From positions 1 through 37,253 of the forward strand of contig JAFRHH010000056.1 in assembly GCA_017433405.1 (NCBI GenBank): DNA of 37,253 nucleotides. The letters are read 5' to 3'. Within the stretch, counting starts at the first letter, position 1. Each line of letters begins with the position of its first letter. Shown here piece after piece: positions 8,852-35,330 of this stretch. Under the pieces are notes generated by a model. It did not search any database and had not been told where the DNA came from. It saw nothing but the letters and a program-made list of their open reading frames with translations. This DNA is from Clostridia bacterium (lineage in GTDB: Bacteria; Bacillota; Clostridia; Christensenellales; Aristaeellaceae). The position numbers and the translations under genes were made by a program.

Positions 8852-8943
8852 GACAGATTTTGTCCGCGAACACGCAAGCGAAGCGGTTACAAAATCGTCA
8901 TCTGTCACAGAATGGCCGACGTGAACTGCCGTTCACAGAAGAA
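8852..8943 (+). repeat. SD-carrying repeat, copy A
   Basis: It starts at the base after the glycosyltransferase stop. Stem 1 is GATTTTGT (8856-8863) with ACAAAATC (8889-8896), inner CCGC/GCGG (8864-8867/8883-8886) and an inner CGC-AA-GCG hairpin. Stem 2 is a perfect GTGAAC-TGCC-GTTCAC (8921-8936). The core is altered (ATCTGTCACAG) and the terminal AGAGGAG is decayed to AGAAGAA. A promoter follows at 8946, so this copy probably lies in the 3' region of the upstream gene rather than the leuS leader. Confidence 0.85.
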
Positions 8944-8945
8944 TC

Positions 8946-8975
8946 TTGAAGAGGGAAAGGGTTTTATGCTATGAT
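8946..8975 (+). promoter_or_regulatory. Promoter for leuS
   Basis: TTGAAG (8946-8951), an 18-base spacer and TATGAT (8970-8975). The predicted start near 8982 lies after the ATG at 8971, which supports ATG 9013 as the leuS start. No T-box leader sequence (AGGGTGG-type) is visible. Confidence 0.5.
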
Positions 8976-9012
8976 GGCAGACGAACAAAGAATAAGGACC
9001 GGTGAAGGCAAG

Positions 9013-11436
9013 ATGGAGCGCAAATACGACCCGAAAACGATCGAAAAGAAATGGCAGCAATACTGGGAGGAGCACAAGACCTTCCACACGGACGTATGGG
9101 ATTTTTCCAGACCCAAATTCTACGCCCTCGACATGTTCCCCTATCCCAGCGGCGTCGGCCTGCACGCCGGGCATCCCGAGGGATACACCGCAACGGATAT
9201 CGTCAGCCGGATGAAGCGCATGCAGGGTTACAACGTCCTGCATCCCATGGGGTACGACAGCTTCGGCCTTCCGGCGGAGCAGTACGCCATCAGCACCGGA
9301 AACCATCCGGAAGGCTTCACCGCCCACAACATCGAAACCTTCAGCCGCCAGCTCAGGGAGCTCGGCTTCGACTACGACTGGGACAAGATGATCGCCACCA
9401 GCGATCCCTCCTTTTACCGGTGGACCCAGTGGATCTTCAAGCAGCTTTATCTCGACGGATACGCCCAGTACATCGACATGCCCGTCAACTGGTGCGAAGA
9501 GCTCGGTACCGTACTGAGCAACGACGAGGTCATCGACGGGAAGAGCGAGCGGGGCGGGTATCCCGTCGTCCGCAAAAACATGAAGCAGTGGGTGATCAAC
9601 CAGCCCGCCTTCGCCGAGAAGCTGCTCGAGGGCCTCGAGGAAATCGACTGGCCCGAGAGCACCAAGGACATGCAGCGCCACTGGATCGGCAGGAGCGAGG
9701 GCGTCGAGGTTGAGTTTCAGATTCAGGGCGGGGGCAGCTTCCGCATCTTTACCACCTGCATCGAGACGATCTACGGCGTAACCTTCATGGTGCTGGCGCC
9801 GGACGGACAGCTGGTTCAGGAGCTGATGCCCCGGATCCGGAATCAGGAAGAGGTCAAGGCCTATATCGAGGAAACCCGGAAGAAAAACGACATGGACCGG
9901 ACGGAGCTCAACAAGGGCAAAACCGGATGCCGCCTCGAAGGCGTCAGGTGCATCAACCCCGCCAACGGGAAGGAGGCCGAGCTTTTCATCGGCGACTTCG
10001 TCCTCGCCAGCTACGGCACCGGCGCCGTCATGGCCGTGCCCAGCCACGACCAGCGGGACTTCGAATACGCCGTCGCCCACGGGATCGACATGATCCAGGT
10101 CATCGGCGGCGCGGATGTCAGCGAGCATGCCTTCGAAAAGCAGGACTACCTCGGAAAAGGCTGCCGGCTCATGAACAGCGAGGAGTTCACCGGGATGACC
10201 GTCGAGGAGGCCAAGGAGGCCATTACCGCCAAGCTCGAAAAAATGGGCGTCGCGAAGCGGACCGTGAACTACCACTTCCGCGAATGGATCTTCGCCCGGC
10301 AGCGGTACTGGGGGGAGCCCGTTCCCATGGTTCACCGGGAGGACGGGAGCCTTTATCCCCTGCCGGACGACGAGCTGCCGCTGGTGCTGCCGGAGCTGGA
10401 GGACTACAGGGGGCGGAACGGAAAGGCCCCACTCGAGAACGCCGAGGAATGGAAGCATTACGACCGCCACGGCGTCCGGGGCACCCGGGAGACCAGCACC
10501 ATGCCCGGTTCCGCCGGATCCAGCTGGTACTACCTGCGCTACATCGACCCGAAGAACGAGACGGAATTCGCCAACCAGGAGCTTCTGAAGCACTGGATGC
10601 CCGTCGACCTGTATATCGGCGGGCCGGAGCACGCCGTCGGCCACCTGATGTACAGCCGGATCTGGAACCGGTTCCTCTACGACAAGGGGCTCAGCCCCGT
10701 CAAGGAGCCCTTTAAAAAGCTCGTGCACCAGGGGATGATCCTCGGGGAGAACGGCATCAAGATGGGAAAACGCTTTCCCGAATTCGTCGTCAACCCCAGC
10801 GACATCGTTCGGGACTACGGGGCGGATACCCTCCGGCTTTACGAAATGTTCATGGGGCCCCTCGAGGTCTCCAAGCCCTGGAGCAGACAGGGCGTCGAGG
10901 GCGCCCGGAAATTCCTGAACCGGGTCTGGACCTTCTTCACCAACGAGGAAAACATGACCGCGGAAAACGACGGAACCCTGGACAAGGTTTTCCACCAGAC
11001 GGTTAAGAAGGTGACCGAGGATTTCGAAAGCCTCGGCTTCAATACCGCCATCAGCCAGATGATGATCTTCGTCAACGCCTGCTACAAGGCCGGGAAATGC
11101 CCGAAGACCTACGCGGAAGCCTTCGTTAAAATGCTCAGCTGCGTCTGCCCCCATATCGGGGAGGAGATGTGGAGCATCCTGGGCCACGGGGAAAGCCTCG
11201 CCCGCGAGCCCTGGCCGGAATGGGACGAGAGCGCCCTCCGGGAGGACACCATTCAGATTCCCGTCCAGGTCAACGGCAAGGTTCGGGCCACCGTCGAGAT
11301 CGGCGTCAGCGAGGAGCAGGACAGCGTACTCGAAAAGGCCCACGCCATGAAGAACGTTCAGACCTTCCTCGCCGGAAAAACCGTCGTCAAGGAGATCTAT
11401 ATCAAAGGCCGGATCGTCAATATCGTCGTCAAATAA
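9013..11436 (+). CDS. leuS: Leucyl-tRNA synthetase
   Basis: An 807-residue class I aminoacyl-tRNA synthetase that charges tRNA-Leu in the cytoplasm. It opens with the family start MERKYDPKTIEKKWQQYWEE, and the HIGH-type motif is HAGH at about residue 50 (PYPSGVGLHAGHPEG). The editing (CP1) insertion runs from about 225 to 420 and keeps GTGAVMAVPSHDQRD. The catalytic KMSKS loop is KMGKR (about 582), followed by the typical NPSDIVRDYGADTLRLYEMFMGPL and an anticodon-binding C-terminus. The editing-site motif usually written TTRPDT reads TTCIET at about 247-252. Start ATG 9013 fits the family and the promoter at 8946; the ATGs at 8971/8974 would precede the predicted transcript. The gene is alone in its transcript, with a terminator at 11530. 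Confidence 0.97.
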   Translation: MERKYDPKTIEKKWQQYWEEHKTFHTDVWDFSRPKFYALDMFPYPSGVGLHAGHPEGYTATDIVSRMKRMQGYNVLHPMGYDSFGLPAEQYAISTGNHPEGFTAHNIETFSRQLRELGFDYDWDKMIATSDPSFYRWTQWIFKQLYLDGYAQYIDMPVNWCEELGTVLSNDEVIDGKSERGGYPVVRKNMKQWVINQPAFAEKLLEGLEEIDWPESTKDMQRHWIGRSEGVEVEFQIQGGGSFRIFTTCIETIYGVTFMVLAPDGQLVQELMPRIRNQEEVKAYIEETRKKNDMDRTELNKGKTGCRLEGVRCINPANGKEAELFIGDFVLASYGTGAVMAVPSHDQRDFEYAVAHGIDMIQVIGGADVSEHAFEKQDYLGKGCRLMNSEEFTGMTVEEAKEAITAKLEKMGVAKRTVNYHFREWIFARQRYWGEPVPMVHREDGSLYPLPDDELPLVLPELEDYRGRNGKAPLENAEEWKHYDRHGVRGTRETSTMPGSAGSSWYYLRYIDPKNETEFANQELLKHWMPVDLYIGGPEHAVGHLMYSRIWNRFLYDKGLSPVKEPFKKLVHQGMILGENGIKMGKRFPEFVVNPSDIVRDYGADTLRLYEMFMGPLEVSKPWSRQGVEGARKFLNRVWTFFTNEENMTAENDGTLDKVFHQTVKKVTEDFESLGFNTAISQMMIFVNACYKAGKCPKTYAEAFVKMLSCVCPHIGEEMWSILGHGESLAREPWPEWDESALREDTIQIPVQVNGKVRATVEIGVSEEQDSVLEKAHAMKNVQTFLAGKTVVKEIYIKGRIVNIVVK

Positions 11437-11477
11437 GACAGAAAAAGACAAGGCGGGCGGGCGGAATCCGTCCGAGA

Positions 11478-11530
11478 GATCGCCGTCCGTTTAGACAGAA
11501 AACGGCAAAGACGGCGCGCCGCCTCATCGC
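11478..11530 (+). repeat. Possible degenerate copy of the SD-carrying repeat
   Basis: AGATCGCCGTCCG followed by TTTAGACAGAA and GGCAAAGACGG resembles the conserved core (AAATCGTCATCCGGACAGAATGGCAGACG), with an insertion shared with copy E (TTTAGACAGAA). No complete stems remain and no start codon follows. Confidence 0.3.
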
Positions 11531-11558
11531 GGTAGGGAGCAGTCCCTGCCGCCTTTTT
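11530..11558 (+). terminator. Intrinsic terminator downstream of leuS
   Basis: GGTAGGGA (11531-11538), loop GCAG and TCCCTGCC (11543-11550) form a stem, which closes with an extra C-G pair. CCTTTTT follows. A second weaker hairpin, the CCTTCCCGGGAAGG palindrome (11597-11610) followed by TTTTCTTTT, lies just downstream. Confidence 0.75.
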
Positions 11559-11675
11559 CTTCCCTGGGAAGAACCCGCTTATCTTCCGAAGGATTTCCTT
11601 CCCGGGAAGGTTTTCTTTTCTTTGAATATTTACATTTTCTTTAAGCAATCCGGCGAAAATATTTCCAAAATTATG

Positions 11676-11704
11676 TTGACAATGTTACAGGAATTTAATA
11701 AAAT
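11676..11704 (+). promoter_or_regulatory. Promoter for the SH3/peptidoglycan-binding protein gene
   Basis: TTGACA (11676-11681) and TAAAAT (11699-11704) are spaced by 17 bases in a locally AT-rich stretch. The leader to ATG 11754 is about 45 bases. The rest of the 317-base gap between leuS and this gene holds the two hairpins and the doubtful repeat copy described separately. Confidence 0.8.
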
Positions 11705-11753
11705 AATCATGTATCGGAATATTTCCGCGAAACGAGCGCGAGGTGATTAGAAC

Positions 11754-13649
11754 ATGACAAAAATCCATCGCAGGATCCTGGCCCTGACCCTGGCGCTGAT
11801 GACAGCGGCAGCCCTGCTTCCCGGATTCCTGATGAAGCCGGCGGCCGCGGAAAGCGACCTGGGGATCACCACCGCGGACAAGGTGAACCTGCGCATCTAT
11901 GCCAGCCCGAAGGCCGGCTACATCGTCCGGCTGCCGGCGCAATATGTCTGCACCGTCCTGAGCGAAACCGACCAGGAGGGCTATCACTGGTTCCAGGTTA
12001 CCTGCGTCGATCCGGAGAGTCCGACCGGAAGAACCCAGACCGGATATATCCGGGGGGACTGCTTTCGCCGGCTGACGGACGAGGAAGCCGCCAACTATAC
12101 CAAGACCGGGACCGCCTCGGGCGGCTCAGGCGACGCCGTCAACACGAACACGTCCGTCGAGGGCATGTACGGGATTGTCGTCAACGGCAGCGGCGTCAAC
12201 GTACGCCAGGGGCCCGGAACCATGTACCGCAGCCTGCTGAAGCTGAACCGGGGGGATACCGTGACCATTCTCGAGGCGCCCTCCATCAAGAACAGCAGCG
12301 AAACCTTCTATAAAATTCAGACCGGCAGCACCGTCGGCTACATCATGTCCACCTTCCTGCAGGAGAGCGGAGCTCCCGCGCCGGTGCCTTCCCCCACCTC
12401 CGCCCCGTCCCCCACGGACGTCGTCGGATACGTCATGACGACCATGAGCGGCGTCAATCTTCGGGCCACCATGGGCGGCACCGTGATCCGCCAGCTCGGG
12501 AAGGGGGAAACCTATCCCTATCTTCTGGCGCCGACCAAGAAGGGCGGCTACACCTGGTATTTCGTTCAGGCCGGGAACAACCGGGGCTATCTCCGCAACG
12601 ACGTCGTCAAGGTCGTCGGCAGCTCCCCCGATACCCCCACCGCCGCCCCGACCGCCACGCCAGCCGACAACACCGGCTATGTCATTACCACCGCCGGCGG
12701 CGTCAACCTGCGCAAGAACGCCGGGTTCACCGATCCCATCGGACGGGTGGACCGGGGCGTTATCCTTCCCTACTATGAAACCAGCGTCGTCAAGGACGTC
12801 ACCTGGTTCCAGGTGGTTCATCCCACCCTCGGCACCGGATGGCTCCACGGCAGCTATGTCGCCACCTGCGACGAGAAGGGCAACCGGACGATCGATCCCA
12901 ACGGCGGAAACAGCGGCAGCAGCAATTCAGCCCAGGAAGCCAGCTACAACACCCTGAAGGTCGGATCCACCGGCGACGCGGTGCTGAACCTGACGACGGA
13001 GCTCAAGAACCAGGGCTACTACAAGGGATCGGTCACGCGGAACTACACCACCACCGTCGCCAACGCCGTTCGCGCCTTCCAGCGGGACAAGGGGCTGACC
13101 GTCGACGGCGTCGCCGGCGCCGCCACCCAGCACAAGCTCTACGGCACCGTACCCATCGGCGCCGGCGACAACAGCAACCTGGAATTCGTCATGTATCCCG
13201 CCGAGAAGATCGACTGGTACAACGGCGGCATCAACGAACTCTGGGCCCGGGGCGACAACTACAAGGTATACGACGTCAAGACCGGCATCGTCTGGTGGGC
13301 CCACCGGTGGGCCGGCGGATACCACGTCGACGCCGAACCCCTGACCGCGGCGGATACCGCCCGGCTCTGCAAGAGCTACGGCGTGACCACCGCCCAGGAA
13401 ATCGCCGACAAGAACCTGTGGCAGCGGCGGCCACTGCTGGTCACCATCGGAACGAGAACCTTCGCCTGCTCCCTGTACGGCGTGCCGCACAACTATCCGG
13501 AAGGCGACACGATTTCCACCAACGAATTCAAGGGGCAGCTGTGCATCCATTTCACCAACAGCCGGACCCACACCGGAAGCTCCGTCGACAAATACCATAC
13601 CGAGGCCATCGAATACGCCTGGGAAAACGCGCCGAACGGACACAAATAA
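11754..13649 (+). CDS. Secreted multi-SH3 and peptidoglycan-binding protein with a His-rich C-terminal domain
   Basis: A 631-residue exported protein. The signal peptide (1-31, ending PAAA) is followed by four SH3b-like modules, each with a VNLR or VNVR core, at about 40-105, 135-205, 225-285 and 305-370. They are joined by Pro/Thr/Ser linkers (PSPTSAPSPT, TPTAAPTATP). A peptidoglycan-binding type-1 domain follows at about 398-455 (LKVGSTGDAVLNLTTEL ... AVRAFQRDKGLTVDGVAGAAT). The C-terminal 170 residues contain GIVWWAHRWAGGYHVDAEPL, SLYGVPHNYPEGD and CIHFTNSRTHTG...DKYHTEAIEYAW, rich in His and Cys. This suggests a metal-dependent or thiol-based cell-wall enzyme, though the family is not named here. 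Start ATG 11754 has GAGGTGATT eight bases upstream. The gene has its own promoter and terminator. Confidence 0.9.
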   Translation: MTKIHRRILALTLALMTAAALLPGFLMKPAAAESDLGITTADKVNLRIYASPKAGYIVRLPAQYVCTVLSETDQEGYHWFQVTCVDPESPTGRTQTGYIRGDCFRRLTDEEAANYTKTGTASGGSGDAVNTNTSVEGMYGIVVNGSGVNVRQGPGTMYRSLLKLNRGDTVTILEAPSIKNSSETFYKIQTGSTVGYIMSTFLQESGAPAPVPSPTSAPSPTDVVGYVMTTMSGVNLRATMGGTVIRQLGKGETYPYLLAPTKKGGYTWYFVQAGNNRGYLRNDVVKVVGSSPDTPTAAPTATPADNTGYVITTAGGVNLRKNAGFTDPIGRVDRGVILPYYETSVVKDVTWFQVVHPTLGTGWLHGSYVATCDEKGNRTIDPNGGNSGSSNSAQEASYNTLKVGSTGDAVLNLTTELKNQGYYKGSVTRNYTTTVANAVRAFQRDKGLTVDGVAGAATQHKLYGTVPIGAGDNSNLEFVMYPAEKIDWYNGGINELWARGDNYKVYDVKTGIVWWAHRWAGGYHVDAEPLTAADTARLCKSYGVTTAQEIADKNLWQRRPLLVTIGTRTFACSLYGVPHNYPEGDTISTNEFKGQLCIHFTNSRTHTGSSVDKYHTEAIEYAWENAPNGHK

Positions 13650-13708
13650 ACCCGGACAACGGAACCGGGAACAGCCGGATGAAATAGCCGGAGCAACACA
13701 TCAACCCG

Positions 13709-13743
13709 GGAAGCAGGGCACAGGAAAGCGCCCTGCTTCCTTT
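13709..13743 (+). terminator. Intrinsic terminator after the SH3 protein gene
   Basis: A perfect 11-bp stem, GGAAGCAGGGC (13709-13719) with GCCCTGCTTCC (13730-13740), is followed by TTT. The T-run is short but the stem is strong. The remaining bases to radA at 13876 show no further clear signal apart from the radA ribosome binding site. Confidence 0.7.
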
Positions 13744-13875
13744 CCGTATCGGCAGGAAATAGCACGGGGTTCGGAGAATATTCTCGGGGCGGACTGAAAT
13801 GGTTCGGAGGAATCAACGGATTCATCGGCTTCCGGGGATTCAAAGGGTTTTTTAAAGATTCAGGAGGTTTCAGGC

Positions 13876-15246
13876 ATGGCCAGCAAAGCCAAGGTATGCT
13901 ACGCCTGCAGCGCATGCGGATACGAGACGCCGAAATGGGTCGGGCGATGCCCGGGCTGCGGCGCGTGGAACACGCTGGAGGAAAGCGTTTCCGCCGTTCC
14001 GGAAAAAGCCGCCGCCCGGCCCGCCAAACAGCGGCCCGGCACCGGCGCCCGGGCGATGCTCCTCAAGGACATTCCCGAGGATACCACGATTCGGATTTCC
14101 ACGGAGATCAGCGAGCTGGACCGGGTTCTCGGCGGCGGCATCGTCGAGGGCGGGCTGATGCTCATCGGCGGGGATCCCGGGATCGGAAAGAGCACCCTGC
14201 TTCTTCAGACCTGCGCCCATCTCGCCCGGCAGGGAAAGCGCGTTTTATACGTCAGCGGGGAGGAATCCGCCCGCCAGATCAAGCTGCGGGCCTCCCGGCT
14301 CGGGATCCGGGAGGATATTCACGTCCTCGCCGAAAATGCGCTGGATGAGGTCGAAAACCGCCTTCGGGAGCTTCAGCCCGACGCGGCCGTCATCGACAGC
14401 ATTCAGACCATGTACCGGCCGGAGATGGCCTCGGCGCCGGGGAGCGTTTCCCAGATTCGGGAGGGCACCAGCCTGATCATGCGCCTCTGCAAGGAGACGG
14501 GAACGAGCATTTTTCTTGTCGGCCACGTTACGAAGGACGGCGCCATCGCCGGGCCCCGGATGCTGGAGCACATGGTCGACGTGGTTCTTTATTTCGAGGG
14601 AGACCGGCAACAGGACTACCGGCTGCTGCGGGCCGTGAAGAACCGGTTTGGGAGCGTCAACGAGCTGGGGGTGTTCCGCATGACCGGATCGGGCATGCAG
14701 ACCGTCGAAAACCCCAGCGAGGAGCTGCTGAGCCACCGGGCCAAGGGCGCCAGCGGAAGCTGCGTGTTCTGCGGGCTGGAGGGCTCCCGGCCCCTGCTGT
14801 GCGACGTCCAGGCGCTGACCAGCCCCACCTATTACGGAACGCCGCGGCGCACCGTCAACGGCGCCGACGCCGGACGGATCGCGCTGCTGCTGGCGGTGCT
14901 GGAGAAGCGGGCCAGCCAGCGGACCTATAACCAGGACGTTTACATCAACGTCGCGGGCGGGCTCGAGCTGAGCGAGCCAGCCGCCGATCTGGCCCTTTGC
15001 ACCGCCGTTGCCAGCAGCCTCAAGGACCGGACCCTTCCCCCGGAGGTCGCCGTCATGGGCGAGGTCGGGCTGGCCGGCGAGGTGCGGACGATTCCCCAGT
15101 GCGAACGGCGCATCAGCGAATGCGCCCGGCTGGGTTTCACCACCGTGATCATTCCCCGGTCAAACGCCAGGCGGATTCAGGCGCCGGAGGGCGTCCGGAT
15201 CATCGGCGTCGATACCGTCGCCCAGACGCTGAGCGTCCTTTTCTGA
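13876..15246 (+). CDS. radA: DNA repair protein RadA
   Basis: A 456-residue cytoplasmic ATPase, a RecA-like branch-migration helicase that helps process recombination intermediates. An N-terminal C4 zinc finger (CSACGYETPKWVGRCPGCGAW), a Walker A motif GGDPGIGKSTLL near residue 96, the RadA-specific KNRFG motif (about 254) and a C-terminal Lon-protease-like domain are all present and in order. Length is normal. AGGAGG lies seven bases before ATG 13876. The stop at 15244-15246 is followed at once by repeat copy B, which supplies the ribosome binding site of yacL, so radA and yacL are probably co-transcribed. In Bacillus disA sits between them; here it does not. Confidence 0.97.
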   Translation: MASKAKVCYACSACGYETPKWVGRCPGCGAWNTLEESVSAVPEKAAARPAKQRPGTGARAMLLKDIPEDTTIRISTEISELDRVLGGGIVEGGLMLIGGDPGIGKSTLLLQTCAHLARQGKRVLYVSGEESARQIKLRASRLGIREDIHVLAENALDEVENRLRELQPDAAVIDSIQTMYRPEMASAPGSVSQIREGTSLIMRLCKETGTSIFLVGHVTKDGAIAGPRMLEHMVDVVLYFEGDRQQDYRLLRAVKNRFGSVNELGVFRMTGSGMQTVENPSEELLSHRAKGASGSCVFCGLEGSRPLLCDVQALTSPTYYGTPRRTVNGADAGRIALLLAVLEKRASQRTYNQDVYINVAGGLELSEPAADLALCTAVASSLKDRTLPPEVAVMGEVGLAGEVRTIPQCERRISECARLGFTTVIIPRSNARRIQAPEGVRIIGVDTVAQTLSVLF

Positions 15247-15247
15247 T

Positions 15248-15276
15248 CAGACGTGAATTACCATTCACAGAGGAGG
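15248..15276 (+). repeat. SD-carrying repeat, copy B (3' part only)
   Basis: Only CAGACG, the second hairpin (GTGAAT-TACC-ATTCAC, 15253-15268) and the terminal AGAGGAGG (15269-15276) are present. They begin two bases after the radA stop. The hairpin differs from most copies at both sides of one pair (T-A for C-G), preserving pairing. AGGAGG lies nine bases before the yacL start. Confidence 0.85.
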
Positions 15277-15285
15277 AAAACCACG

Positions 15286-16443: not shown

Positions 16444-16447
16444 AGGA

Positions 16448-16540
16448 GACAGGTTTTGTCCGTGAACGCGTCAGCGGGAACGGTTACAAAATCGTCATCC
16501 GGACAGAAAAGCAGACGTGAACTGCCATTCACAAAGGAGG
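16448..16540 (+). repeat. SD-carrying repeat, copy C (no gene follows)
   Basis: A full copy: GGTTTTGT/ACAAAATC (16452-16459/16486-16493), CCGT/ACGG (16460-16463/16480-16483), inner CGC-GTCA-GCG, core ATCGTCATCCGGACAG, second hairpin GTGAAC-TGCC-ATTCAC and terminal AAAGGAGG (16533-16540). Only here is the strong ribosome binding site not followed by a same-strand gene; the next codons begin ACG and close quickly, and the opposing ABC gene ends at 16557. Both ends of this copy carry AAGGAG. Confidence 0.88.
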
Positions 16541-16556
16541 AGAACCGGACGAAGGG

Positions 16557-18358: not shown

Positions 18359-20284
18359 TCAGCTCCCCTCCTCCTCTGTGAACGCCGGCCTAAGTTCGCT
18401 GTTCCTGCCGGATGACGATTTTAATGCCGCGTCCCGCTCGAGCGGATCACGGACAGAATCAGGCTCCCGATTCATCGACTGAATCCGGTCTATTTCCTGA
18501 TACAGCCCCGGCTGGGAGCGAAGCTCCTCCGGGGTTCCCAGCTGGGCCACCCGGCCATGATCCAGCACCAGCACCTGGTCCGCCCGGGAAAGGGTCGTAA
18601 TCCGGTGGGAGATCAGAATAATGGTCGCGGTCCCAAAGCGCTCCTCCAGCGCAGCCCGGATCTTCGCGTCCGTCTCCGTGTCCACCGCGGAAAGAGAATC
18701 ATCAAAAATCATGATGGGGACGGGCCGCGCCAGCATCCGCGCGATCGCCGCCCGCTGCTTCTGGCCGCCCGAAAGCGTTACGCCCCGTTCCCCCACGAAG
18801 GTATCATATCCCCGGGAAAAGCCGGAAATCGTATCCTCCAGGCAGGCCGCCCGGGACGCTTCCCGAAGGCTTTCCTCCGACAGATCCGCCGAGGTGATTC
18901 CCAGGTTTCCCCGCAGGGTACGGGAAAACAGAAAGGGTTCCTGCAGCACGATTCCGATATTGCGGCGAAGATGGCTCAGGCTGATCCGACGGATATCCCG
19001 TCCCCCGATCGTTATCCGACCGCTGCCCTCCTCCAGCGGATAGAGCCGGTCCAGCAGATACATCAGCGTGCTCTTTCCGGAGCCGGTTCCGCCGAGGATG
19101 CCCAGGGTCGATCCCGCGGGAATCGTCAGGGAAATATCATGCAGCATTTCGGGGCAGCCCTCATAGGCGAAGGAAACATGCTCGAAGCGGATATCTCCGT
19201 CCATCGGCGCCTCCGATGATCCGGGAAGATCCCTTTCCTCCTCCGACTCCATGATCATCGCAATCCGGTCTATTCCGACCCCCGCCTTCGACATTTCACT
19301 GATCATCCGTCCCAGCTGCCGAACCGGCCAGACCAGCATACCGTTATAGCTGACAAAGGCGATAAACTCGCCGCTGGTCATCCTGCCCTGGAGACAGAAA
19401 ACCACGCCGAAAACAATCACCAGCATCACCTGAAGTCCCGAGAGGATATCCACCGTGGACCAGAACAGGCTCATCAGCTTTCCCAACCGAACCCAGAGGG
19501 AAGTATAATGCCGATTCTGAGCGTTAAAGCGATCCCGTTCATACCGCTCCCGGCCAAAGGCCCGCACCACCCGGACCCCCGTCAGGTTTTCCTGGGCCAT
19601 GGCGGAAAGACGGCCTTCATTTTCATCGCAGGTCTGGAAACCGCTTCTGAACTTCCGATGAAAGAACAGGGAATACCAGACGATTACCGGCAGCGGAATC
19701 ATCGCGATCAGCGTCAGCGTTCCGTTCATGCCAAGCATGAACACCATGCTCAGCAGCAGCAGAATCAGGATCCGTATCAGATTCGTCATCTGTTCGGAAA
19801 TAAAGTTCCGCGTCGTTTCAATATCGCTGGTGCAGCGCTGGATAATATCTCCCGTATGATACTGCATATGCCACTGGAAGGGGAGACGCTCAATATGGCG
19901 ATAGAGCGAATCCCGCATGGTCTTCACCAGCGTTTCGCTGCCCCTGGCGTTCATAACCCGGAATCCGTACAGCGCCGCTACCTTAATCAGCGCGATTACC
20001 AGCACTGCCGCCGCAGCTATCCACAGATGATCCCGGATCCACTCCGCGCCGCCCAGCTGCTCCAGCAGGCCGCGGACGACCGGAGACAGTGTATCCAGCG
20101 GAGCCCGGCCCAGCACCTGGTCCACCGTAATCCGGATGATCTGCGGCGTAACCATATCCGCCAGCGCGGATACCGCCGCGCAGATCATGCACATCAGAAA
20201 GAAAAACTTACTTCCCTTCAGAAAGGTTCGGAGCAGTTTCGCCCGTCCCGAACCGGAGCGGTTTTTCTTCATTTGCTCGTTCAT
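18359..20284 (-). CDS. ABC exporter subunit with degenerate ATP site
   Basis: A 641-residue half-transporter with six transmembrane helices and an NBD. Walker A is GGTGSGKSTLMYL, the signature LSGGQKQRAAIARML is canonical, but Walker B reads IMIFDDSLSAVD, with Asp where the catalytic Glu belongs. In heterodimeric exporters this subunit contributes the degenerate ATP site while its LSGGQ completes the consensus site with the partner, and the partner downstream has the matching features. ATG 20284 has GAGGT seven bases upstream. The final 40 or so residues (from about DSVRDPLER to the stop at 18359) are unlike the family and are encoded by repeat copy D, so the tail is probably acquired rather than functional. 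Confidence 0.93.
   Translation of the reverse strand: MNEQMKKNRSGSGRAKLLRTFLKGSKFFFLMCMICAAVSALADMVTPQIIRITVDQVLGRAPLDTLSPVVRGLLEQLGGAEWIRDHLWIAAAAVLVIALIKVAALYGFRVMNARGSETLVKTMRDSLYRHIERLPFQWHMQYHTGDIIQRCTSDIETTRNFISEQMTNLIRILILLLLSMVFMLGMNGTLTLIAMIPLPVIVWYSLFFHRKFRSGFQTCDENEGRLSAMAQENLTGVRVVRAFGRERYERDRFNAQNRHYTSLWVRLGKLMSLFWSTVDILSGLQVMLVIVFGVVFCLQGRMTSGEFIAFVSYNGMLVWPVRQLGRMISEMSKAGVGIDRIAMIMESEEERDLPGSSEAPMDGDIRFEHVSFAYEGCPEMLHDISLTIPAGSTLGILGGTGSGKSTLMYLLDRLYPLEEGSGRITIGGRDIRRISLSHLRRNIGIVLQEPFLFSRTLRGNLGITSADLSEESLREASRAACLEDTISGFSRGYDTFVGERGVTLSGGQKQRAAIARMLARPVPIMIFDDSLSAVDTETDAKIRAALEERFGTATIILISHRITTLSRADQVLVLDHGRVAQLGTPEELRSQPGLYQEIDRIQSMNREPDSVRDPLERDAALKSSSGRNSELRPAFTEEEGS
18370..18464 (-). 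repeat. SD-carrying repeat, copy D, read through as coding sequence
   Basis: On the minus strand: GATTCTGTCCGTGATC, inner CGC-TCGA-GCG, AAAATCGTCATCCGG, then GCGAAC ... GCGTTCACAGAGGAGG (AGAGGAGG at 18377-18370). It lies inside the last codons of the upstream ABC subunit and ends as the ribosome binding site of the second subunit. The first stem no longer pairs fully, as expected if sequence here now also encodes protein. Confidence 0.75.
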
Positions 20285-27277: not shown

Positions 27278-27637
27278 AATAATCCTTCTTTCGATCAGAT
27301 GCTCACGTTTCCTGTTTCTGATGATTTACTCTTTAAAATAATATCGTTATCATATTAGAGCCTGTGAATCCTGTGGAAAAAGTTTCAGGCATTGAGATAA
27401 AAGCGTTCCATGAAAAAAAGAAAGTGGAAAAAAAGCGTAAAACCGGTCATCTCTGTTGATATTCGATTCGGGCTGAGCTAAATCCTTCCCGAAAATAAAG
27501 GCTTTCGAAAGGGTTTGAACATAAATTGAAATCAGAATACACCTCCCGAAGCAGCAGTCACAGCAAAAAAAATTCTGGAAAAAAGGATATTCACAGACTT
27601 ATTCTGTCTGTGTGAAAAACATGCACAGGAAACAAAA
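27278..27637. other. Intergenic region between pgsA and dnaN with DnaA-box-like 9-mers
   Basis: No gene is visible here. TTTTCCACA (27380-27372, -) and TTTTTCACA (27619-27611, -) match TTWTNCACA, with near matches at 27424 and 27588. A hairpin CACAGAC/GTCTGTG (27592-27598/27606-27612), followed on the minus strand by a T-run about seven bases later, may terminate pgsA transcription. In many Bacillota dnaA would lie here; it is absent. An AT-rich stretch at 27330-27360 probably contains the dnaN promoter, but I cannot place it with confidence. Confidence 0.5.
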
Positions 27638-29484: not shown

Positions 29485-29584
29485 GAAAGACCTCCTTCTG
29501 TCCTGCGCGGCGCGATAAGCCTGATTCATCATGTATTTCCGGGAATGCTCAAAGTATATCATGTTTCAAAAGTTTTGAAAAGAA

Positions 29585-29614
29585 TGGACAGAAAGGGAAA
29601 AAAGCCGATATAAT
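29585..29614 (+). promoter_or_regulatory. Promoter for polA
   Basis: TGGACA (29585-29590), an 18-base spacer and TATAAT (29609-29614). The predicted start near 29621 puts repeat copy E inside the polA leader. Confidence 0.6.
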
Positions 29615-29643
29615 AGGGCTGACAGGGTGATCATGGAGGCGGG

Positions 29644-29739
29644 CAACAGCTTTGTTCGCGATCTGCGGTGGCGGGAACGGTATCATAATCGTCATTTAGA
29701 CAGAAGAACAGACGCGAACTGGTATTCAGTTGAGGAAGG
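29644..29739 (+). repeat. SD-carrying repeat, copy E (diverged) in the polA leader
   Basis: CTTTGTTCGCG, then GCGGGAACGGTATCATAATCGTCATTTAGACAGAAGAACAGACGCGAACTGGTATTCAG aligns to the family over its length but with decayed stems. It ends in GAGGAAGG (29732-29739), which is 13 bases before the polA ATG and the only ribosome-binding candidate. Confidence 0.65.
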
Positions 29740-29752
29740 AAACGGTTGAAAT

Positions 29753-32323
29753 ATGAAAGATACTTTTTTGATTGTCGATGGAAACAGCTTGATGCATCGG
29801 GCGTTTCATGCATTGCCGCTGATGGATGCGGACGGAATCTATACCAATGCAATATATGGTTTTTTTTCCATGCTGCTGAAAGTACTGGAGGAAGAAAAGG
29901 TTCAGTATCTTGCCATCTGTTTTGACGAGCATGGACCTACTTTCAGACATAAGGCCTATGCGGATTATAAAGCCGGGAGAGCAGAGACGCCGCCGGAATT
30001 ACGGCAGCAGTTTACGACCATCCATCAGCTGCTGGATGAAATGGGAATAAAAACATTTTCTCTTGCGGGATGGGAAGCGGATGACCTGCTCGGAACCCTG
30101 AGCCGGAAGGGAGTTGAAGCAGGAGCTGCGCCGCTTTTGCTGACCGGGGACAGGGACGCGCTTCAGCTTGTTGGCGGTGGTACTGAACTGATGTTTACCA
30201 GAAAGGGAATCACGGATACGATTCGCTTTACGCCTTCGAAAGTCTATGAGGAATATGGTTTTACACCGGAGCAGGTCACGGACTGGAAAGGTCTGGCGGG
30301 TGACAGCAGCGATCATATCCCGGGTGTTCCGGGGGTTGGGGATAAAACCGCGGTTCGCCTGCTTCAGGAGTATGGCAATCTGGACAATATTTTTAAAAAC
30401 ATCGCCGGAATCAAGGGAAAGCTGGGAGAAAAACTGACAACATGGGAAGCACAGGCCAGAATGAGCAAGGATCTTGCGACAATCCGACGGGATGCTCCTG
30501 TCGCGTTCAGCCTGGATGAGTGTTCAGTTCCGGATTTAAAAAAAGGGATTGGCGCCCTGAAAAAGCTGAAGTTGAACAGTATTATCAGGAGAATCAGCGG
30601 ATGCGATGAAAAAGAATCCGGAGAAGAGAGTAAATCTGTTCCAGTTCTGACGTTTCGTGAGGCGCAAATGATCGGGAACGGGGAGCAGCTTCAGAAATGG
30701 CTGGATCAGCGGAAGATAGAAGAAATGGCGGTTTGTCTTTTTGAAACAGATTTTGCCATTTCAATGGCCTGTGAAAATGGGGAGAGGGCTGTGATTCCAC
30801 TCCAGGGGGATCTGATGACTCCCGGAATGGATCCCGTCAGTGTTTTCAGAATCATCGGAAAAAAAATCAAAGAGCAGCCCTTTGTTGTGCACCATATCAA
30901 AAAATGGCTTCATCTTTTCAGTAAAATGGGATCCGAACTTCCGGAGACGGTGGAGTGGGATACGATGCTCGGCGCTTATTTGCTCAATCCTCAGGAAAAA
31001 AGCTACCGGTTGAAGGCCCTGCTTCCGGATCTGGACGAGGATGCTGCGGCTGTTTGCTCGCTGTATGTCTGGCAAAGGAAACAAGTGGAAAGAAATGGCA
31101 TGTATTCTTTGTTAAAAGAAGTGGAAATTCCGCTCAGTTTCGTGCTGTTTGAAATGGAAAGAGAAGGATTTACAGTCGATGCTGACAGACTGCGAAATCT
31201 CGGAAAACAGTATACGCAGGAAATCGAAATTTGCAGAAAGCAGGTGATTTCCGCGACGGGAGGACATTCCTTTAATCTGAACAGCCCTCAACAACTTGGG
31301 GAAGTTCTTTTCGAAAAGATGAATCTTCCTCATGGAAAGAAAACCTCGAAAGGATATTCTACCTCGGCGGAAATTCTGGAGGGACTTCGATTTGAGGCTC
31401 CCGAAGTGATTGAGCCGCTGCTCCGATACCGCCAGCTGATGAAACTCAATGGAACTTATGTGGAGGGATTGATTCCCCTGATTGATGAAAAGGGACGGGT
31501 TCATTCTTATTTTGATCAGGTTGCGACAGCAACGGGACGAATCAGCTCCTCTGAACCAAACCTTCAGAATATTCCCGTTCGAAGTGAAGAAGGGAAGGAA
31601 ATCCGGGAGGCTTTTATTCCAAGAAGCGGATGGATTCTGCTGGACGCGGATTACAGCCAGATTGAACTGAGGCTGATGGCTCACTTCAGTGAAGACCCTG
31701 CCCTGATCGATGCTTTTCAAAAGGATGAGGATATTCACGCAAGAACGGCCAGTGAGATCTTTGAGGTTCCGCTGGAATGGGTTACTCCGGAAATGCGCAG
31801 CCGGGCCAAAGCTGTTAACTTTGGAATTATTTATGGGATCAGCGGCTTTGGGTTAAGCCGAAATACGGGAATCAGCCGGCGGGAAGCGGAAGATTTTATT
31901 GGCCGGTATTTTAAAAAATATCCCGGTGTTAAGCGGTTTATGGATCAGACAGTTTCACAGGGAATGGATACAGGCTATGCTGAAACGATGATGGGGCGAA
32001 GACGCTACCTGCCTGAATTAAAAAGTACCAAGGCGCCCATACGGGAGTTCGGAAAAAGAGCCGCCATGAATACGCCCGTTCAGGGAACAGCCGCGGATAT
32101 TATCAAGCTGGCGATGGTTCATGTGGATCAGACCCTGAAGGCGCATCATCTGAAAAGCAAGCTGATTTTACAGGTACATGATGAACTGCTGCTGGAATGT
32201 CCCCCGGAGGAAGTGAAAAAGGCTGCCCTGTTACTGCAGGAAGCCATGGAAAAGGTGATACAGCTGAGAGTACCGCTGAAGGCGGAGGTTCACAGCGGGC
32301 TGAGCTGGGCTGAAGCCAAATAA
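29753..32323 (+). CDS. polA: DNA polymerase I
   Basis: An 856-residue polymerase for gap filling and Okazaki-fragment processing. An N-terminal 5'-3' exonuclease (about 1-290: LIVDGNSLMHRAFHALP, LLTGDRDALQL, GVPGVGDKTA) is followed by a middle domain whose proofreading residues are missing. The DxE motif of 3'-5' exonucleases is replaced by LFETDF, and the other acidic motifs are absent, as in many Bacillota. The polymerase domain has motif A LDADYSQIELR (about 632), motif B RAKAVNFGIIYG (about 683) and motif C QVHDELLLE (about 808). Start ATG 29753. It is preceded by its own promoter and repeat copy E. Confidence 0.97.
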   Translation: MKDTFLIVDGNSLMHRAFHALPLMDADGIYTNAIYGFFSMLLKVLEEEKVQYLAICFDEHGPTFRHKAYADYKAGRAETPPELRQQFTTIHQLLDEMGIKTFSLAGWEADDLLGTLSRKGVEAGAAPLLLTGDRDALQLVGGGTELMFTRKGITDTIRFTPSKVYEEYGFTPEQVTDWKGLAGDSSDHIPGVPGVGDKTAVRLLQEYGNLDNIFKNIAGIKGKLGEKLTTWEAQARMSKDLATIRRDAPVAFSLDECSVPDLKKGIGALKKLKLNSIIRRISGCDEKESGEESKSVPVLTFREAQMIGNGEQLQKWLDQRKIEEMAVCLFETDFAISMACENGERAVIPLQGDLMTPGMDPVSVFRIIGKKIKEQPFVVHHIKKWLHLFSKMGSELPETVEWDTMLGAYLLNPQEKSYRLKALLPDLDEDAAAVCSLYVWQRKQVERNGMYSLLKEVEIPLSFVLFEMEREGFTVDADRLRNLGKQYTQEIEICRKQVISATGGHSFNLNSPQQLGEVLFEKMNLPHGKKTSKGYSTSAEILEGLRFEAPEVIEPLLRYRQLMKLNGTYVEGLIPLIDEKGRVHSYFDQVATATGRISSSEPNLQNIPVRSEEGKEIREAFIPRSGWILLDADYSQIELRLMAHFSEDPALIDAFQKDEDIHARTASEIFEVPLEWVTPEMRSRAKAVNFGIIYGISGFGLSRNTGISRREAEDFIGRYFKKYPGVKRFMDQTVSQGMDTGYAETMMGRRRYLPELKSTKAPIREFGKRAAMNTPVQGTAADIIKLAMVHVDQTLKAHHLKSKLILQVHDELLLECPPEEVKKAALLLQEAMEKVIQLRVPLKAEVHSGLSWAEAK

Positions 32324-32345
32324 AGGCGGGCCAGAGGAGCTTTCA

Positions 32346-32374
32346 TTGACTTTTACAGATTTAAATGGTAAAGT
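32346..32374 (+). promoter_or_regulatory. Promoter for the FakA-like small gene
   Basis: TTGACT (32346-32351), 17 bases, TAAAGT (32369-32374) with an extended TGG before it. Repeat copy F, starting at 32401, would be inside the transcript leader. Confidence 0.65.
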
Positions 32375-32400
32375 ACCTGCGGATTTCACGATGAAAGGAT

Positions 32401-32494
32401 GACAGAATTTGCCCTTGATCCGCTTATGCGAAGACGGTGAAAAAATCGTCATCCGGACAGAATGACAGACGTGAACTACCGTTCACAGAGGAGG
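32401..32494 (+). repeat. SD-carrying repeat, copy F
   Basis: The first stem is diverged (GAATTTGCCC ... GGTGAAAAAATC, inner CGC-TTAT-GCG). The core ATCGTCATCCGGACAGAATGACAGACG is intact, hairpin 2 is perfect (GTGAAC-TACC-GTTCAC, 32471-32486), and AGAGGAGG (32487-32494) is eight bases before the start codon of the next gene. Confidence 0.88.
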
Positions 32495-32502
32495 ATTAAT
32501 GT

Positions 32503-32754
32503 ATGCTGGAATACAAGTTTGATACTCAGCTTCTGATCGATGGAAAAAACCTGGATGAGGATGCCATTAATGATTATATTACTGAGAATTTCAAAGGAGA
32601 CTCCCTTTTGGCTGTAGGAGATGATGAACTGATTAAAATCCATTATCATACCAACGAACCATGGGAAGTTTTGAAATATGCCGCAAGCCTCGGCGAAATC
32701 TATGATGTTGTAGTTGAAAACATGGAGCGTCAGGAAGCCGGACTGAAGGGGTAA
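32503..32754 (+). CDS. Small stand-alone protein similar to the middle part of FakA/YloV
   Basis: An 83-residue acidic protein. The run GDSLLAVGDDELIKIHYHTNEPWEVLKYAASLGEIYDVVVENM closely follows the C-terminal part of the FakA (YloV) fatty-acid kinase middle domain (pattern GDSLVVVGDDDLVKVHVHTNxP ... GxLxxIKIENM). FakA phosphorylates fatty acids held by FakB proteins, but this protein lacks the DAK2/kinase domain. Its role is unknown; it could bind a fatty acid, a partner FakB or another DegV-like protein. No other Fak or DegV gene is in the window. ATG 32503 is preceded by AGAGGAGG of repeat copy F with ideal spacing. Confidence 0.75.
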   Translation: MLEYKFDTQLLIDGKNLDEDAINDYITENFKGDSLLAVGDDELIKIHYHTNEPWEVLKYAASLGEIYDVVVENMERQEAGLKG

Positions 32755-32794
32755 CAATCACCAGGAATTTTCCCAAATATTTTTTATGTAGGGA

Positions 32795-32886
32795 GACTCA
32801 ATTTGTTCTCAAACCGCGTCAGCCGGGAGCGGGCATATCAGCGTTTTCCGGACAGAATGGCGAAGTGTGCAGACGTCAAAGAGGAG
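32795..32886 (+). repeat. SD-carrying repeat, copy G (second hairpin lost)
   Basis: GACTCAATTTGTTCTCAAAC, inner CGCGTCAGCCGG, then TTTTCCGGACAGAATGGCG and AGACGT-CAAAGAGGAG. Hairpin 2 is deleted or scrambled, and AGAGGAG (32880-32886) sits only three bases before the next ATG. Confidence 0.75.
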
Positions 32887-32889
32887 TGA

Positions 32890-33624
32890 ATGGCCATAAG
32901 CAGGCTTGGAGATCTGATTCGTACGGAACGAATCCGGCAAAAGATGACAACAAAACAGGTTGCCAGAAAATGCGGTGTGAGCGAAAGTTATTTGCAGGCG
33001 GTGGAGGCCGGAACCAGGATTATTGCTGACGATCAGGCGAGGCGTATTTTAAAAACCATTGGTCTTAAGCAGCAGAACGAGGCGGACTTTACCCTGGACG
33101 ATATCGCGGCTACGGTAGATCTGGTTCAGGTTCAGCCACGAATGGCTGTTATCGCAGAAAAAAAGAGGGAAGAAGCTAAGCTGGCTGCCAGTAGCAACGA
33201 ATCCGAGCAGGGAATTGCAGGAAGTGTCTGGCTGGATGCCCTTCAAAGTATTCTAAAAAGAGTTCCTGTGATGAATGCCGTCATGAAGCCAGTTGAGTAT
33301 CGTCTGGTTCCAGTTGAGAATGGACGGATTGAAGGAGCAAATCCGGATAAGGTTTTCTTTTTTCTCGTTCCCGATGACAGCATGCGGGGTTTTCGTATTC
33401 ATCGGGGGGATCTGGTTCTGATGGTTCCGGCTCAAAGCCCTGTCAATGAAGCCATTATGCTCGTTCAGTATAACCAGCATCGGTGCCTGAGAAAAATCAA
33501 AGTGCTGGACGAACGGCAGATATTGCTTCAAAGCTATGACCGAGAATTTGAGTCACAAACGGTATTGGTCAGTGAAATAGGCTTTTTAAGCCGCGGTGTC
33601 AGGGTTCAGTTTGAGCTAAGCTAA
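32890..33624 (+). CDS. XRE-family regulator with S24 (LexA-like) C-terminal domain
   Basis: A 244-residue protein. The N-terminal helix-turn-helix of the XRE type (about 7-58: IRTERIRQKMTTKQVARKCG, VSESYLQAVEAG) is followed by a linker. A C-terminal S24 peptidase-like fold starts at about 155, with DDSMRGFRIHRGDLVLMVPA carrying the Ser of the Ser-Lys pair and CLRKIKV the likely Lys. An Ala-Gly pair (QGIAGSVW, about residue 106) could be an autocleavage site, as in LexA and phage repressors; that is inference. Whether it is cleaved, and by which signal, is unknown. No SOS-box operator or phage genes are visible nearby. Start ATG 32890; the ribosome binding site is unusually close. It is followed by a strong terminator. 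Confidence 0.85.
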   Translation: MAISRLGDLIRTERIRQKMTTKQVARKCGVSESYLQAVEAGTRIIADDQARRILKTIGLKQQNEADFTLDDIAATVDLVQVQPRMAVIAEKKREEAKLAASSNESEQGIAGSVWLDALQSILKRVPVMNAVMKPVEYRLVPVENGRIEGANPDKVFFFLVPDDSMRGFRIHRGDLVLMVPAQSPVNEAIMLVQYNQHRCLRKIKVLDERQILLQSYDREFESQTVLVSEIGFLSRGVRVQFELS

Positions 33625-33666
33625 AAAGAAGGCTGTTCGGAAAAATCCAGAACAGCCTTCTTTTTT
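33623..33666. terminator. Bidirectional intrinsic terminator
   Basis: GAAGGCTGTTC (33628-33638) and GAACAGCCTTC (33650-33660) form a perfect 11-bp stem. TTTTTT follows on the plus strand and TTTTT (33627-33623) on the minus strand. It serves both the XRE/S24 gene and the convergent DUF1015 gene. Confidence 0.92.
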
Positions 33667-33695
33667 GATTGTCATGGTACAGGAAAAGTCTCCGG

Positions 33696-34952
33696 TCAGA
33701 TCTTTTTTGCTTCCATGTAAAAACGCTTTTCATCCGCTTCTCCCATGGAGAAGGTTTTTCGGGGAAGCACTCCAAGGGTCTGTACATCCTTAAAGAAGGA
33801 GTTTTTATTAATCTCAGGAAGAAGAATACCAACGGTATCCTGTTTAGATGCAAGAGATCGGAGAGACTGATCACCATGAATATAATCGATCTTCACTTCA
33901 TCATGATGAAGAATATAATCATCCAAGAATTTCTGAAGTGTTTCACAGGGAATAGCTCCTTCTGGATGAAGCACCGATATAAGTTCTTCGGCTTTTTTTG
34001 AAATGACCCTGAAAGAATGACCTGTACCTGAATGATCGAGGGACATGCCATGAACTTTGGCATAGGAGGCCCATTCTTTCATCAGATGATCCATGCTTGT
34101 TCCGTATAAAACCCGGTGAATGGGCTCAAACAACAGCGCTTCATCATGAATATTCACTATTTCCGCTAAAGCATACCGTGCGGGATGGTTTTGCCGCTGA
34201 TCCGGTCTAAGACCGCCGCGAATTTTCTCCCAGCAGGCTTTGGCAGTGGCAAGCGAATGATTTCCATCGCCGACCGCGAACAGGAGTGGATTAGGCCCGG
34301 CTTGATTACACAGAGCTTCCAGCGAAGAAGATACATGATCCAATAAAATGTTACTGGATACTTCATATCCTGCAAGATGTCCACCGTTCAGCATCAGATC
34401 AAAGTCATAGAGTTTTGTCATTTTATTTTTTTGACTTCGAAGGGGTTCCAGAACAGTGTGGTTTGGGTCATCGATGAGAATCATAATATGGGAAAGTTCA
34501 ACAGGAGCACCTTCTCGTATCTCCTGTCTGGCTGGGAGACGCGAGGCAATGGTTTGCTCTGTAGGACGAATAAGAGAGTGTGAATTTTTTTCAAAGGAAT
34601 AAGCCTCAAGATCGACCGCGCCAATGAGTCCGACCCGTGTACCGGTGGCAATTTTTCTTTCGCAAAGGACAAAGCCGTGATGAATGGTTGGAATCAATAT
34701 TTTTTGTTTAAGATAATCCTTCATGGTCTGATGAATCAGTGGAATTCTTTTTTCTTTTTCATTCAGATAACATTCCGGAAGAATCATACGCAAGGCAGAT
34801 GGATTTGACCCAACTGTTTTATTTGCTTTTTCCCAGTATTCCGGTTCAGAAGTATATTGATCACATGCTTCACAAGCCCATGTTTCACGTGAAACATTTT
34901 TTGCGGGAAGCAGTATTTCTGTAGGGGAAAAGCCAATTTGGTCGAAAATCAT
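33696..34952 (-). CDS. DUF1015 family protein
   Basis: A 418-residue cytoplasmic protein of the DUF1015 family, with the conserved LLFAVGDGNHSLATAKACWE segment (about 224-243; DGHH/DGNH motif). The N-terminal half begins IGFSPTEILLPAKNVSRETWACEACDQYTSE. The family is found beside phosphoglycerate/serine biosynthesis genes in many bacteria, but the reaction is not established and no such neighbour is present here. Start ATG 34952 follows GAGGTGATT by 5 bases. The codons for NVSRET contain a perfect parS site. A weak promoter (TTGTTT-17-TAGGAT) lies near 34999-35036. Confidence 0.85.
   Translation of the reverse strand: MIFDQIGFSPTEILLPAKNVSRETWACEACDQYTSEPEYWEKANKTVGSNPSALRMILPECYLNEKEKRIPLIHQTMKDYLKQKILIPTIHHGFVLCERKIATGTRVGLIGAVDLEAYSFEKNSHSLIRPTEQTIASRLPARQEIREGAPVELSHIMILIDDPNHTVLEPLRSQKNKMTKLYDFDLMLNGGHLAGYEVSSNILLDHVSSSLEALCNQAGPNPLLFAVGDGNHSLATAKACWEKIRGGLRPDQRQNHPARYALAEIVNIHDEALLFEPIHRVLYGTSMDHLMKEWASYAKVHGMSLDHSGTGHSFRVISKKAEELISVLHPEGAIPCETLQKFLDDYILHHDEVKIDYIHGDQSLRSLASKQDTVGILLPEINKNSFFKDVQTLGVLPRKTFSMGEADEKRFYMEAKKI
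34881..34896. other. parS: parS site for ParB (Spo0J)
   Basis: TGTTTCACGTGAAACA is a perfect 16-bp palindrome identical to the bacterial parS consensus. It is embedded in the DUF1015 gene, in frame with residues NVSRET. parS sites cluster near the replication origin and nucleate ParB for chromosome segregation and SMC loading. Confidence 0.93.
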
Positions 34953-34997
34953 GAGAAAATCACCTCTATTTGATGCAAATTCAGCGGGTTGCTTTTT

Positions 34998-35061
34998 CTA
35001 TCCTACCACGCGAAGGGACGAGAAACAAGCTTGTTTTCATGAAATAATTCTGGTAGGATGG
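34998..35061. other. Nested palindrome with one shared centre
   Basis: ATCCTACCA (35000-35008) and TGGTAGGAT (35051-35059) form a perfect 9-bp inverted repeat. Inside it AAACAAGCTTGTTT (35023-35036) is a perfect 14-bp palindrome. Both have the same centre, 35029.5, while the 14 bases between on each side do not pair. It lies between the divergent DUF1015 gene and the ABC gene, over the likely DUF1015 promoter. Confidence 0.6.
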
Positions 35062-35079
35062 GGCAGAGCCCAGGAAGCC

Positions 35080-35330
35080 TTTTAGCGGAGCGATAATTTA
35101 ATCGTTATCTGCAAAGCAACAGACTGAAGCAGATGTATAAAGAGGAGACAGATTTTATCCGCGAATCGCGTCAGCGAAGCGGGTACAAAATCGTCATCCG
35201 GACAGAATGACAGATGTGAACTGACGTTCACAGAGGAGACAGATTTTGTCCGTGAATCGCGTTAGCGTGAACGGTTACAAAATCGTCATCCGGACAGAAG
35301 GGCAGACGTGAATTACCATTCACAGAGGAG
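35080..35330 (+). repeat. Tandem array of the SD-carrying repeat (copies H0, H, I)
   Basis: Three units with a 91-92-base period end in AGAGGAG at 35141-35147, 35232-35238 and 35324-35330. H0 (about 35080-35147) is degenerate. H (35148-35238) has GATTTTAT/ACAAAATC, CCGC/GCGG and GTGAAC-TGAC-GTTCAC. I (35239-35330) has GATTTTGT/ACAAAATC (35242-35249/35277-35284), CCGT/ACGG and GTGAAT-TACC-ATTCAC. H and I differ by paired changes that keep both stems. The last AGAGGAG is nine bases before the ABC exporter start. Confidence 0.92.

Follow-up and report, generated by a model that had tools for sequence, protein, structure and literature searches.

Insertion elements of the IS200/IS605 type carry hairpins near both ends, enter 3' of a specific target without duplicating it and have a cleavage-like sequence at their 3' side. 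Here we analyse a short interspersed repeat of similar outline that ends in a Shine-Dalgarno (SD) sequence. It was noticed in a 37,253-nt stretch of DNA, called the window below, which is contig JAFRHH010000056.1 (C31) of assembly GCA_017433405.1, an uncultured gut Clostridia bacterium of the Aristaeellaceae. The host genome (G000) is a draft metagenome-assembled genome (MAG) of 2.53 Mb in 92 contigs, 89% complete. The repeat shares with the IS200/IS605 type its two subterminal hairpins, its insertion 3' of a short sequence that is not duplicated and a cleavage-like 3' sequence; its target is GGA(G), and an autonomous copy with the same ends was not found in this draft. By analogy, the element appears to work like a single-strand hairpin element with GGA(G) as its target.

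Repetitive extragenic palindromic (REP) sequences, the related REPINs and their REP-associated tyrosine transposases (RAYTs) offer a second comparison. Like them, the element is a species-specific, intergenic repeat of high copy number whose hairpin has a tetranucleotide at its foot, and G000 holds one Y1 gene of REP type. According to the accessible text of PMC6006769, REPs measure 21-65 nt and carry GTAG or GTGG at the hairpin foot, and the repeats of some TnpA_REP classes (2.6 and 3) are atypical in lacking GT[AG]G. The element departs from the REP plan in having GGA(G) instead of GTAG/GTGG, two different hairpins in about 91-92 nt instead of a single hairpin of 20-40 bp, and neighbours (up to 100 nt apart) that are direct in 22 cases and inverted in none, where REPs are commonly paired in inverted orientation. 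Unlike REPs and REPINs, it ends in an SD and lies mostly in front of gene starts.

The BOX, RUP and SPRITE repeats of Streptococcus pneumoniae are likewise small, folded, interspersed, lineage-expanded and probably non-autonomous, as far as the accessible part of PMC3049150 describes them. They occur in excess where neighbouring genes converge (Table 1 there), whereas our element stands between convergent genes in only 3 of 136 full copies and nearly always faces a gene. BOX and RUP also have terminal inverted repeats (same paper, accessible part), unlike the element, in which none are visible, and a miniature inverted-repeat transposable element of a DDE transposon would show both inverted repeats and target duplication, neither of which was found. 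The CGTC-tagged repeats of PMC3733652 are palindromic too, and the element's long hairpin ends in CGTC; in the available portion of that paper they have stems of 8-9 bp, occur mostly as head-to-head dimers and are not described as SD donors. A literature search with most subscription journals outside its scope returned no described repeat that targets or supplies SD sequences and, at the same coverage, nothing on RAYTs with REPINs in Firmicutes.

Some small interspersed repeats cluster where they are least harmful; this one would enter one of the most sensitive spots of a gene and survive by carrying the very signal that it interrupts. We put at roughly 0.8 the probability that it is a mobile repeat of about 91 nt, lineage-specific and non-autonomous, that donates a ribosome binding site (RBS) at many gene starts. 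If so, its strategy as a transposon would be directed at translation starts; it would have exchanged the RBS of many genes together by natural means and would show, as a natural experiment, how much change the SD region tolerates, and GGA(G) would become a testable target rule for REP-type and other single-strand transposition.

Empty sites and takeover of the Shine-Dalgarno position

The genomes G009 and G037 show good synteny with G000, and 25 copies of G000 could be matched by both flanks in one or the other. All 25 sites are empty there, so these copies, 24 of them near full length and two scoring below 40 bits, are insertions. Six further copies were matched by the downstream flank only, two of the nine copies in a separate alignment with relatives lie beyond the 25, and the covariance model built from the repeat (R1) has no match in G037. 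The preliminary description of the window had wavered between a mobile repeat that lands beside start codons and supplies an RBS, and a conserved regulatory leader reused by unrelated genes. The first view is supported by copy number, near-absence in relatives, empty sites, near-identical dispersed copies and a bias in orientation and distance; the second founders on the orthologous sites that lack the repeat.

Copy D (18371-18468, minus strand; full length, diverged) illustrates what happens at such a site. In the relatives the sequence reads CGGGAG/GAGG..ATG, which is the SD of the second subunit of an ABC transporter, 14 nt from the start. In G000 the element stands precisely after CGGGAG, inside this SD, and the distance to the start is again 14 nt; the site is empty in both G009 and G037. 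Among 13 clear sites, SD spacing by hand count is equal in G000 and the relative at four (copy D, 14/14; L099, 8/8; L045:11454, 6/6; L044:8176, 11/11), off by 1 nt at four and off by 2-5 nt at five, with four other start-adjacent pairs left out because the relative's SD or start is unclear. Predicted accessibility is higher for SDs behind an element (median 0.51, n = 61) than for other SDs (0.39, n = 300; p = 5.5e-4). Position and spacing suggest that the donated GAGGAG serves as a working RBS, and genes with an insertion are, judging from their sequence, probably still translatable.

In the mechanism that we propose, the element would insert preferentially immediately 3' of GGA(G), mostly facing the downstream gene. 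Where the target is that gene's SD, the old GGAG would be left at the element's 5' end and the terminal GAGGAG would become the new SD, often at the old spacing or within one base of it, and the insertion should thus disturb translation little. The 3' GGAG of an existing copy would in turn present a fresh target, which would explain head-to-tail arrays that share one GAGGAG. The pair formed by copies H (35143-35238, plus strand) and I (35234-35330, plus strand) has one GAGGAG in common, as insertion behind the GGAG of an existing copy predicts.

Build, ends and target

The unit starts with GACAG and continues with a long imperfect hairpin closed by GTC, a linker (in the majority ATCCGGACAGAATGGCAGAC), a short hairpin GTGAAC..GTTCAC and AGAGGAG. 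The order of long hairpin, linker, short hairpin and AGAGGAG had been read from the window copies and is kept in an alignment of 33 copies from the genome. Over 150 copies the two hairpins together show 44 cells of compensatory double changes against 11.7 in shuffles, distributed over 16 of 22 pairs, counts that are inflated by related copies. A switch-like alternative pairing of TTTTGTCCG with CGGACAGAA was also considered and rejected; it shows no covariation on 33 copies, and in the CCGYCGCAGAA subtype, to which 15 of 136 copies belong, it is disrupted.

GACAG is nearly invariant, and the three bases before it are mostly G (76%), G (86%) and A (92%) in 126 copies, tandem ones included, with the signal fading further out; the right end, CACAGAGGAG, is conserved at 85-97% per position. 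Among solo copies GGA forms the left flank in 62 of 105, compared with 2.5% in intergenic DNA. Copies near starts have this flank in 34 of 54 cases and copies farther away in 24 of 44, at similar rates, so that GGA seems to belong to insertion and not to the SD role. The apparent target is accordingly GGA(G) and not the start codon, a refinement of the preliminary description. The right end reads GGAG in 48 of 58 copies with a GGA left flank and still in 26 of 40 with another flank. Because it persists in the latter, this GGAG is more likely borne by the element than a target duplication; at copies where both ends read GGAG, a four-base duplication could give the same picture. A comparison of the two ends revealed no terminal inverted repeats, with 2 of 12 end positions matching and 83% of shuffles reaching as many.

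Position and orientation

The census of settings used gene calls from a simple hexamer caller with imperfect starts and was made in two versions, a stricter one with 136 full copies above 40 bits and one with 145 under slightly wider criteria. In the former, 127 copies have a next gene, which is codirectional in 121; in the latter the figure is 132 of 135, and for random intergenic points it is 59%. A start codon follows within 20 nt in 75 of 136 (stricter) or 83 of 145 (wider) full copies, compared with 7.9% at random. With the element written as E and the flanking genes by their strand relative to it, the 136 copies divide into 72 +E+, 36 -E+, 10 inside a called open reading frame (ORF), 8 with no upstream gene and a codirectional next gene, 3 +E- (convergent), 2 -E- and 5 with a gene missing on one side or antisense. 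Copies inside or extending ORFs, possibly translated, are seen at L043 (5375-5461 and 5610-5702), at L074 (two copies) and in the window at 18371-18468, where the upstream ABC reading frame reads through copy D.

Copies more than 40 nt from starts also keep an orientation. Between codirectional genes, 21 are sense and 2 antisense, or 14 and 2 if those with another copy just downstream are excluded; the latter ratio differs from one half (p = 0.002) and from the 60% expected from sense GGA (p = 0.02). Fragments are skewed as well, with 53 that retain only the 3' part and 6 that retain only the 5' part. Selection for the SD explains those 3' fragments, 29 of the 53, that have a start codon no more than 20 nt away, and some look like deletions between two internal GACAGA motifs or across the hairpin. 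Empty sites as a guide to whether 5'-truncated copies arose by truncated insertion or by later deletion yielded one pair only, which is uninformative.

Several observations weigh against a simple scheme of insertion behind GGA(G) at SDs. A left flank other than GGA occurs in 43 of 105 solo copies, and at L056:3753, L045:9363, L045:2794, L068:903, L047:8589, L064:4773 and L047:9997 the gene retains its native SD, with the element lying further upstream. By our own arithmetic, 57% of full copies stand in sense orientation in the final 25 nt ahead of a gene, a position that accounts for about 17% of the GGA sites in intergenic DNA between codirectional genes. GGA sites alone therefore do not explain the crowding at SDs; in addition, the element would have to favour SD sites, or the copies inserted there would have to survive best. 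An autonomous partner with the element's ends was found neither at the Y1 locus, at 29 other RAYT loci and at four reverse transcriptase loci nor among the fragments, and the host genome is only an incomplete draft MAG. In copy A, L053:6121 and L047:8589 the element starts immediately at the upstream gene's stop codon.

Copy number and distribution

A covariance-model search of G000 finds many further copies, with a bias in orientation and distance to start codons, so that neither of the two refuting outcomes named in the preliminary description, few copies or no bias, occurred. R1 gives at least 149 matches when the best 150 of 1615 candidates are scored, a count limited by that scoring; an earlier DNA search had given at least 49 (best 40 of 275 candidates scored). 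The loci examined first were selected for holding copies. In 0.54 Mb around G000 copies, together with the window, R1 has 182 matches at E <= 0.05, a listing that omits overlapping partners of tandem pairs, and nhmmer has 190 at E <= 1e-3, of which 139 span the whole element. A further 0.40 Mb of G000 without copies in the R1 listing contains no full copy; of its 19 hits, 16 cover the 3' end alone. The copies are distributed over 55 contigs and have diverged to a mean pairwise identity of 78% (among 124), and two on different contigs are 98.9% identical.

Outside the host the family is scarce. Searches with R1 and with a joint model that takes in a sister family of G026 (R2) scored the best 101 candidates per genome in the genus with either model and the best 20 per genome in the family with R2, under stricter filters than in G000, so that weak relatives may be missed; G009 and G026 apparently lie outside the 200 family genomes. 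Among 40 other genus genomes R1 matches only G009 (once) and G026 (6 weak matches), and R2 finds 19 matches in G026, one weak match in G018 and the G009 copy, with none in the other 37. At family level R2 has no match in the other 199 of 200 genomes. The G026 family is diverged and has the same layout; among the loci inspected by eye it lies mostly just before a start codon. A further repeat of similar plan is found upstream of or beside sister copies at L194, L199 and L204 of that genome, with a GCCGTCCGCAGGACGGC-type hairpin, AGTCAGTCAGAA, a second hairpin and ATCGTGAGGAGG, followed in L204 by a start codon.

The single G009 copy sits in a block that matches G000 contig C54 at 99% identity over 500 nt of flank on either side, and on this ground it would be a recent transfer or a misbinned contig. 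The block (L041, G009:C45) is about 99% identical to L053 (G000:C54), and the same two genomes are 82-88% identical in the window region. A scan of GTDB r220 for the exact 21-base core, with the host genome and very near ones left out, returned as its only record a G009 contig, SVGS01000018.1 (Clostridiales bacterium isolate SIG364). In 0.71 Mb of G009, nhmmer found no match to the repeat and a de novo repeat search found no intergenic segment at depth 4 or more. IMG/VR, searched with the core pattern, and plasmids and phages, searched with the repeat, contained no match.

Mode of movement and rival explanations

The manner of movement we can only infer. A tentative proposal, which we hold at somewhat less than even odds, is that the mover is a single-strand-DNA Y1 enzyme (of the IS200/IS605 or REP type) that recognises a hairpin with a GGAG foot. 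A single Y1_Tnp match is found in G000, at C5:808-1548; against NCBIfam REP_Tyr_transpos it scores 58.5 bits (cut-off 80), and a full copy lies upstream of this gene in the same orientation. These facts, together with GGAG at the hairpin foot, where REPs have their tetranucleotides (PMC6006769, accessible text), would also suit a true REP element of the single RAYT of G000. That narrower reading is unlikely: about one gene in ten has an upstream copy by our rough estimate, so that one near the RAYT is a weak sign, and the 91-nt length, GGAG in place of GTAG/GTGG and the lack of inverted dimers do not fit. Among 30 RAYT loci examined, the element occurs at one, as one copy, upstream only; at the other 29 it was not found, the one match having E 0.43, and several such loci of relatives carry short palindromes with a GGGGACGG-type core, which are present in G000 as well. 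A search for an autonomous parent gave no pair of a 5' fragment and a 3' fragment within 6 kb in the stretches examined.

Spread through RNA, in the manner of a bacterial short interspersed nuclear element (SINE), would let the 3' GAGGAG pair with nicked CTCC at an SD and prime reverse transcription, with the reverse transcriptase acting in trans. The excess of 3'-intact, 5'-truncated fragments and the sense bias of far copies (also after exclusion of those with a downstream neighbour copy) point in this direction, as do four RVT_1 genes in G000, two of which our own reading suggests to be group-II-intron-like. Against it, several 3' fragments resemble deletions, SD selection alone would retain 3' ends, the left junction is sequence-specific too (GGA), and the four reverse transcriptase loci hold no convincing element-like sequence (best 9 bits, E 0.54). 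We regard this route as quite improbable, and its fullest form, a SINE-like element that targets SDs through its GAGGAG end and has rewritten the initiation of roughly 100 or more genes in one species, as slightly more so. A conserved cis-regulatory RNA leader of a regulon, resembling a riboswitch or an RNA thermometer and kept by selection, would account for defined hairpins with compensatory changes, for the position right before start codons and for the higher predicted SD accessibility. It is contradicted by the absence of the repeat at every orthologous site compared, by the lack of R1 matches in 38 of 40 other genus genomes and of R2 matches in the other 199 of 200 family genomes, by the functionally unrelated genes in the window (LeuRS, ABC, polA, FakA-like), by tandem copies, decayed fragments and copies inside ORFs, and by 0 Rfam matches in the window at gathering thresholds, and is in our view very improbable. 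An artefact of assembly or binning might be suspected in a fragmented draft MAG with some copies at contig ends (L018, L108); with mutually different copies on 55 contigs and a window syntenic with relatives, its probability is close to negligible.

Two observations stand beside the insertion of a mobile repeat at SDs. A classical REP-like family with the GGGGACGG core is present at L042, L043, L046 and other loci of G000, and several copies of the element that are truncated at the 5' end directly adjoin palindromes of this kind. At L271 (G000:C85) a partial reverse transcriptase lies near the contig end beside short ORFs and possibly belongs to a diversity-generating element.

Copies in the window

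The core CGTCATCCGGACAGAA, with up to 3 mismatches, has 9 matches in the window, far above shuffles (mean 0.41, maximum 3), and a repeat family is thus present, as the preliminary description held. R1 recovers seven of its copies at full length (A, C, D, F, G, H and I), H0 as a degenerate copy and B as a 3' half, plus one doubtful match; copy E of the earlier list is not recovered at E <= 0.05. The six genes after B, D, F, G, H0 and I, for which an RBS donated by the repeat had been proposed, fit that claim by position. Copy B (15221-15275, plus strand; 22 bits, E 0.028) consists of the short hairpin and AGAGGAG directly before the next gene start; the name yacL given to that gene finds no backing in Pfam, where it has no match at E <= 1e-5. 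Copy F (29641-29737, plus strand), which is diverged, places a degraded SD before polA (29753). In copy G (32397-32493, plus strand) the AGAGGAG is positioned as the SD of a gene with a FakA-like domain (32503), in the degenerate H0 (32791-32886, plus strand; 28 bits) it precedes an XRE/S24 gene (32890), and in copy I, the second of the head-to-tail pair opened by H, it occupies the SD position ahead of an ABC transporter gene (35340).

Copies A and C are not RBSs, nor had this been claimed for them. The full-length copy A (8848-8943, plus strand), the one at an upstream stop codon, lies about 70 nt before the start of the leucyl-tRNA synthetase (LeuRS) gene and so is not its SD, and the full-length copy C (16444-16539, plus strand) lies between convergent genes, its next gene being oppositely oriented, with no same-strand gene after it. 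A possible decayed copy is a weak model match at 6055-6134 (plus strand; 25 bits, E 0.006). Other repeats in the window are three tandem units of about 43-44 nt each at 5919-6065 and, at the contig start, 59 bases at 1-59 that recur with 100% identity at 950-1008, 949 bases apart.

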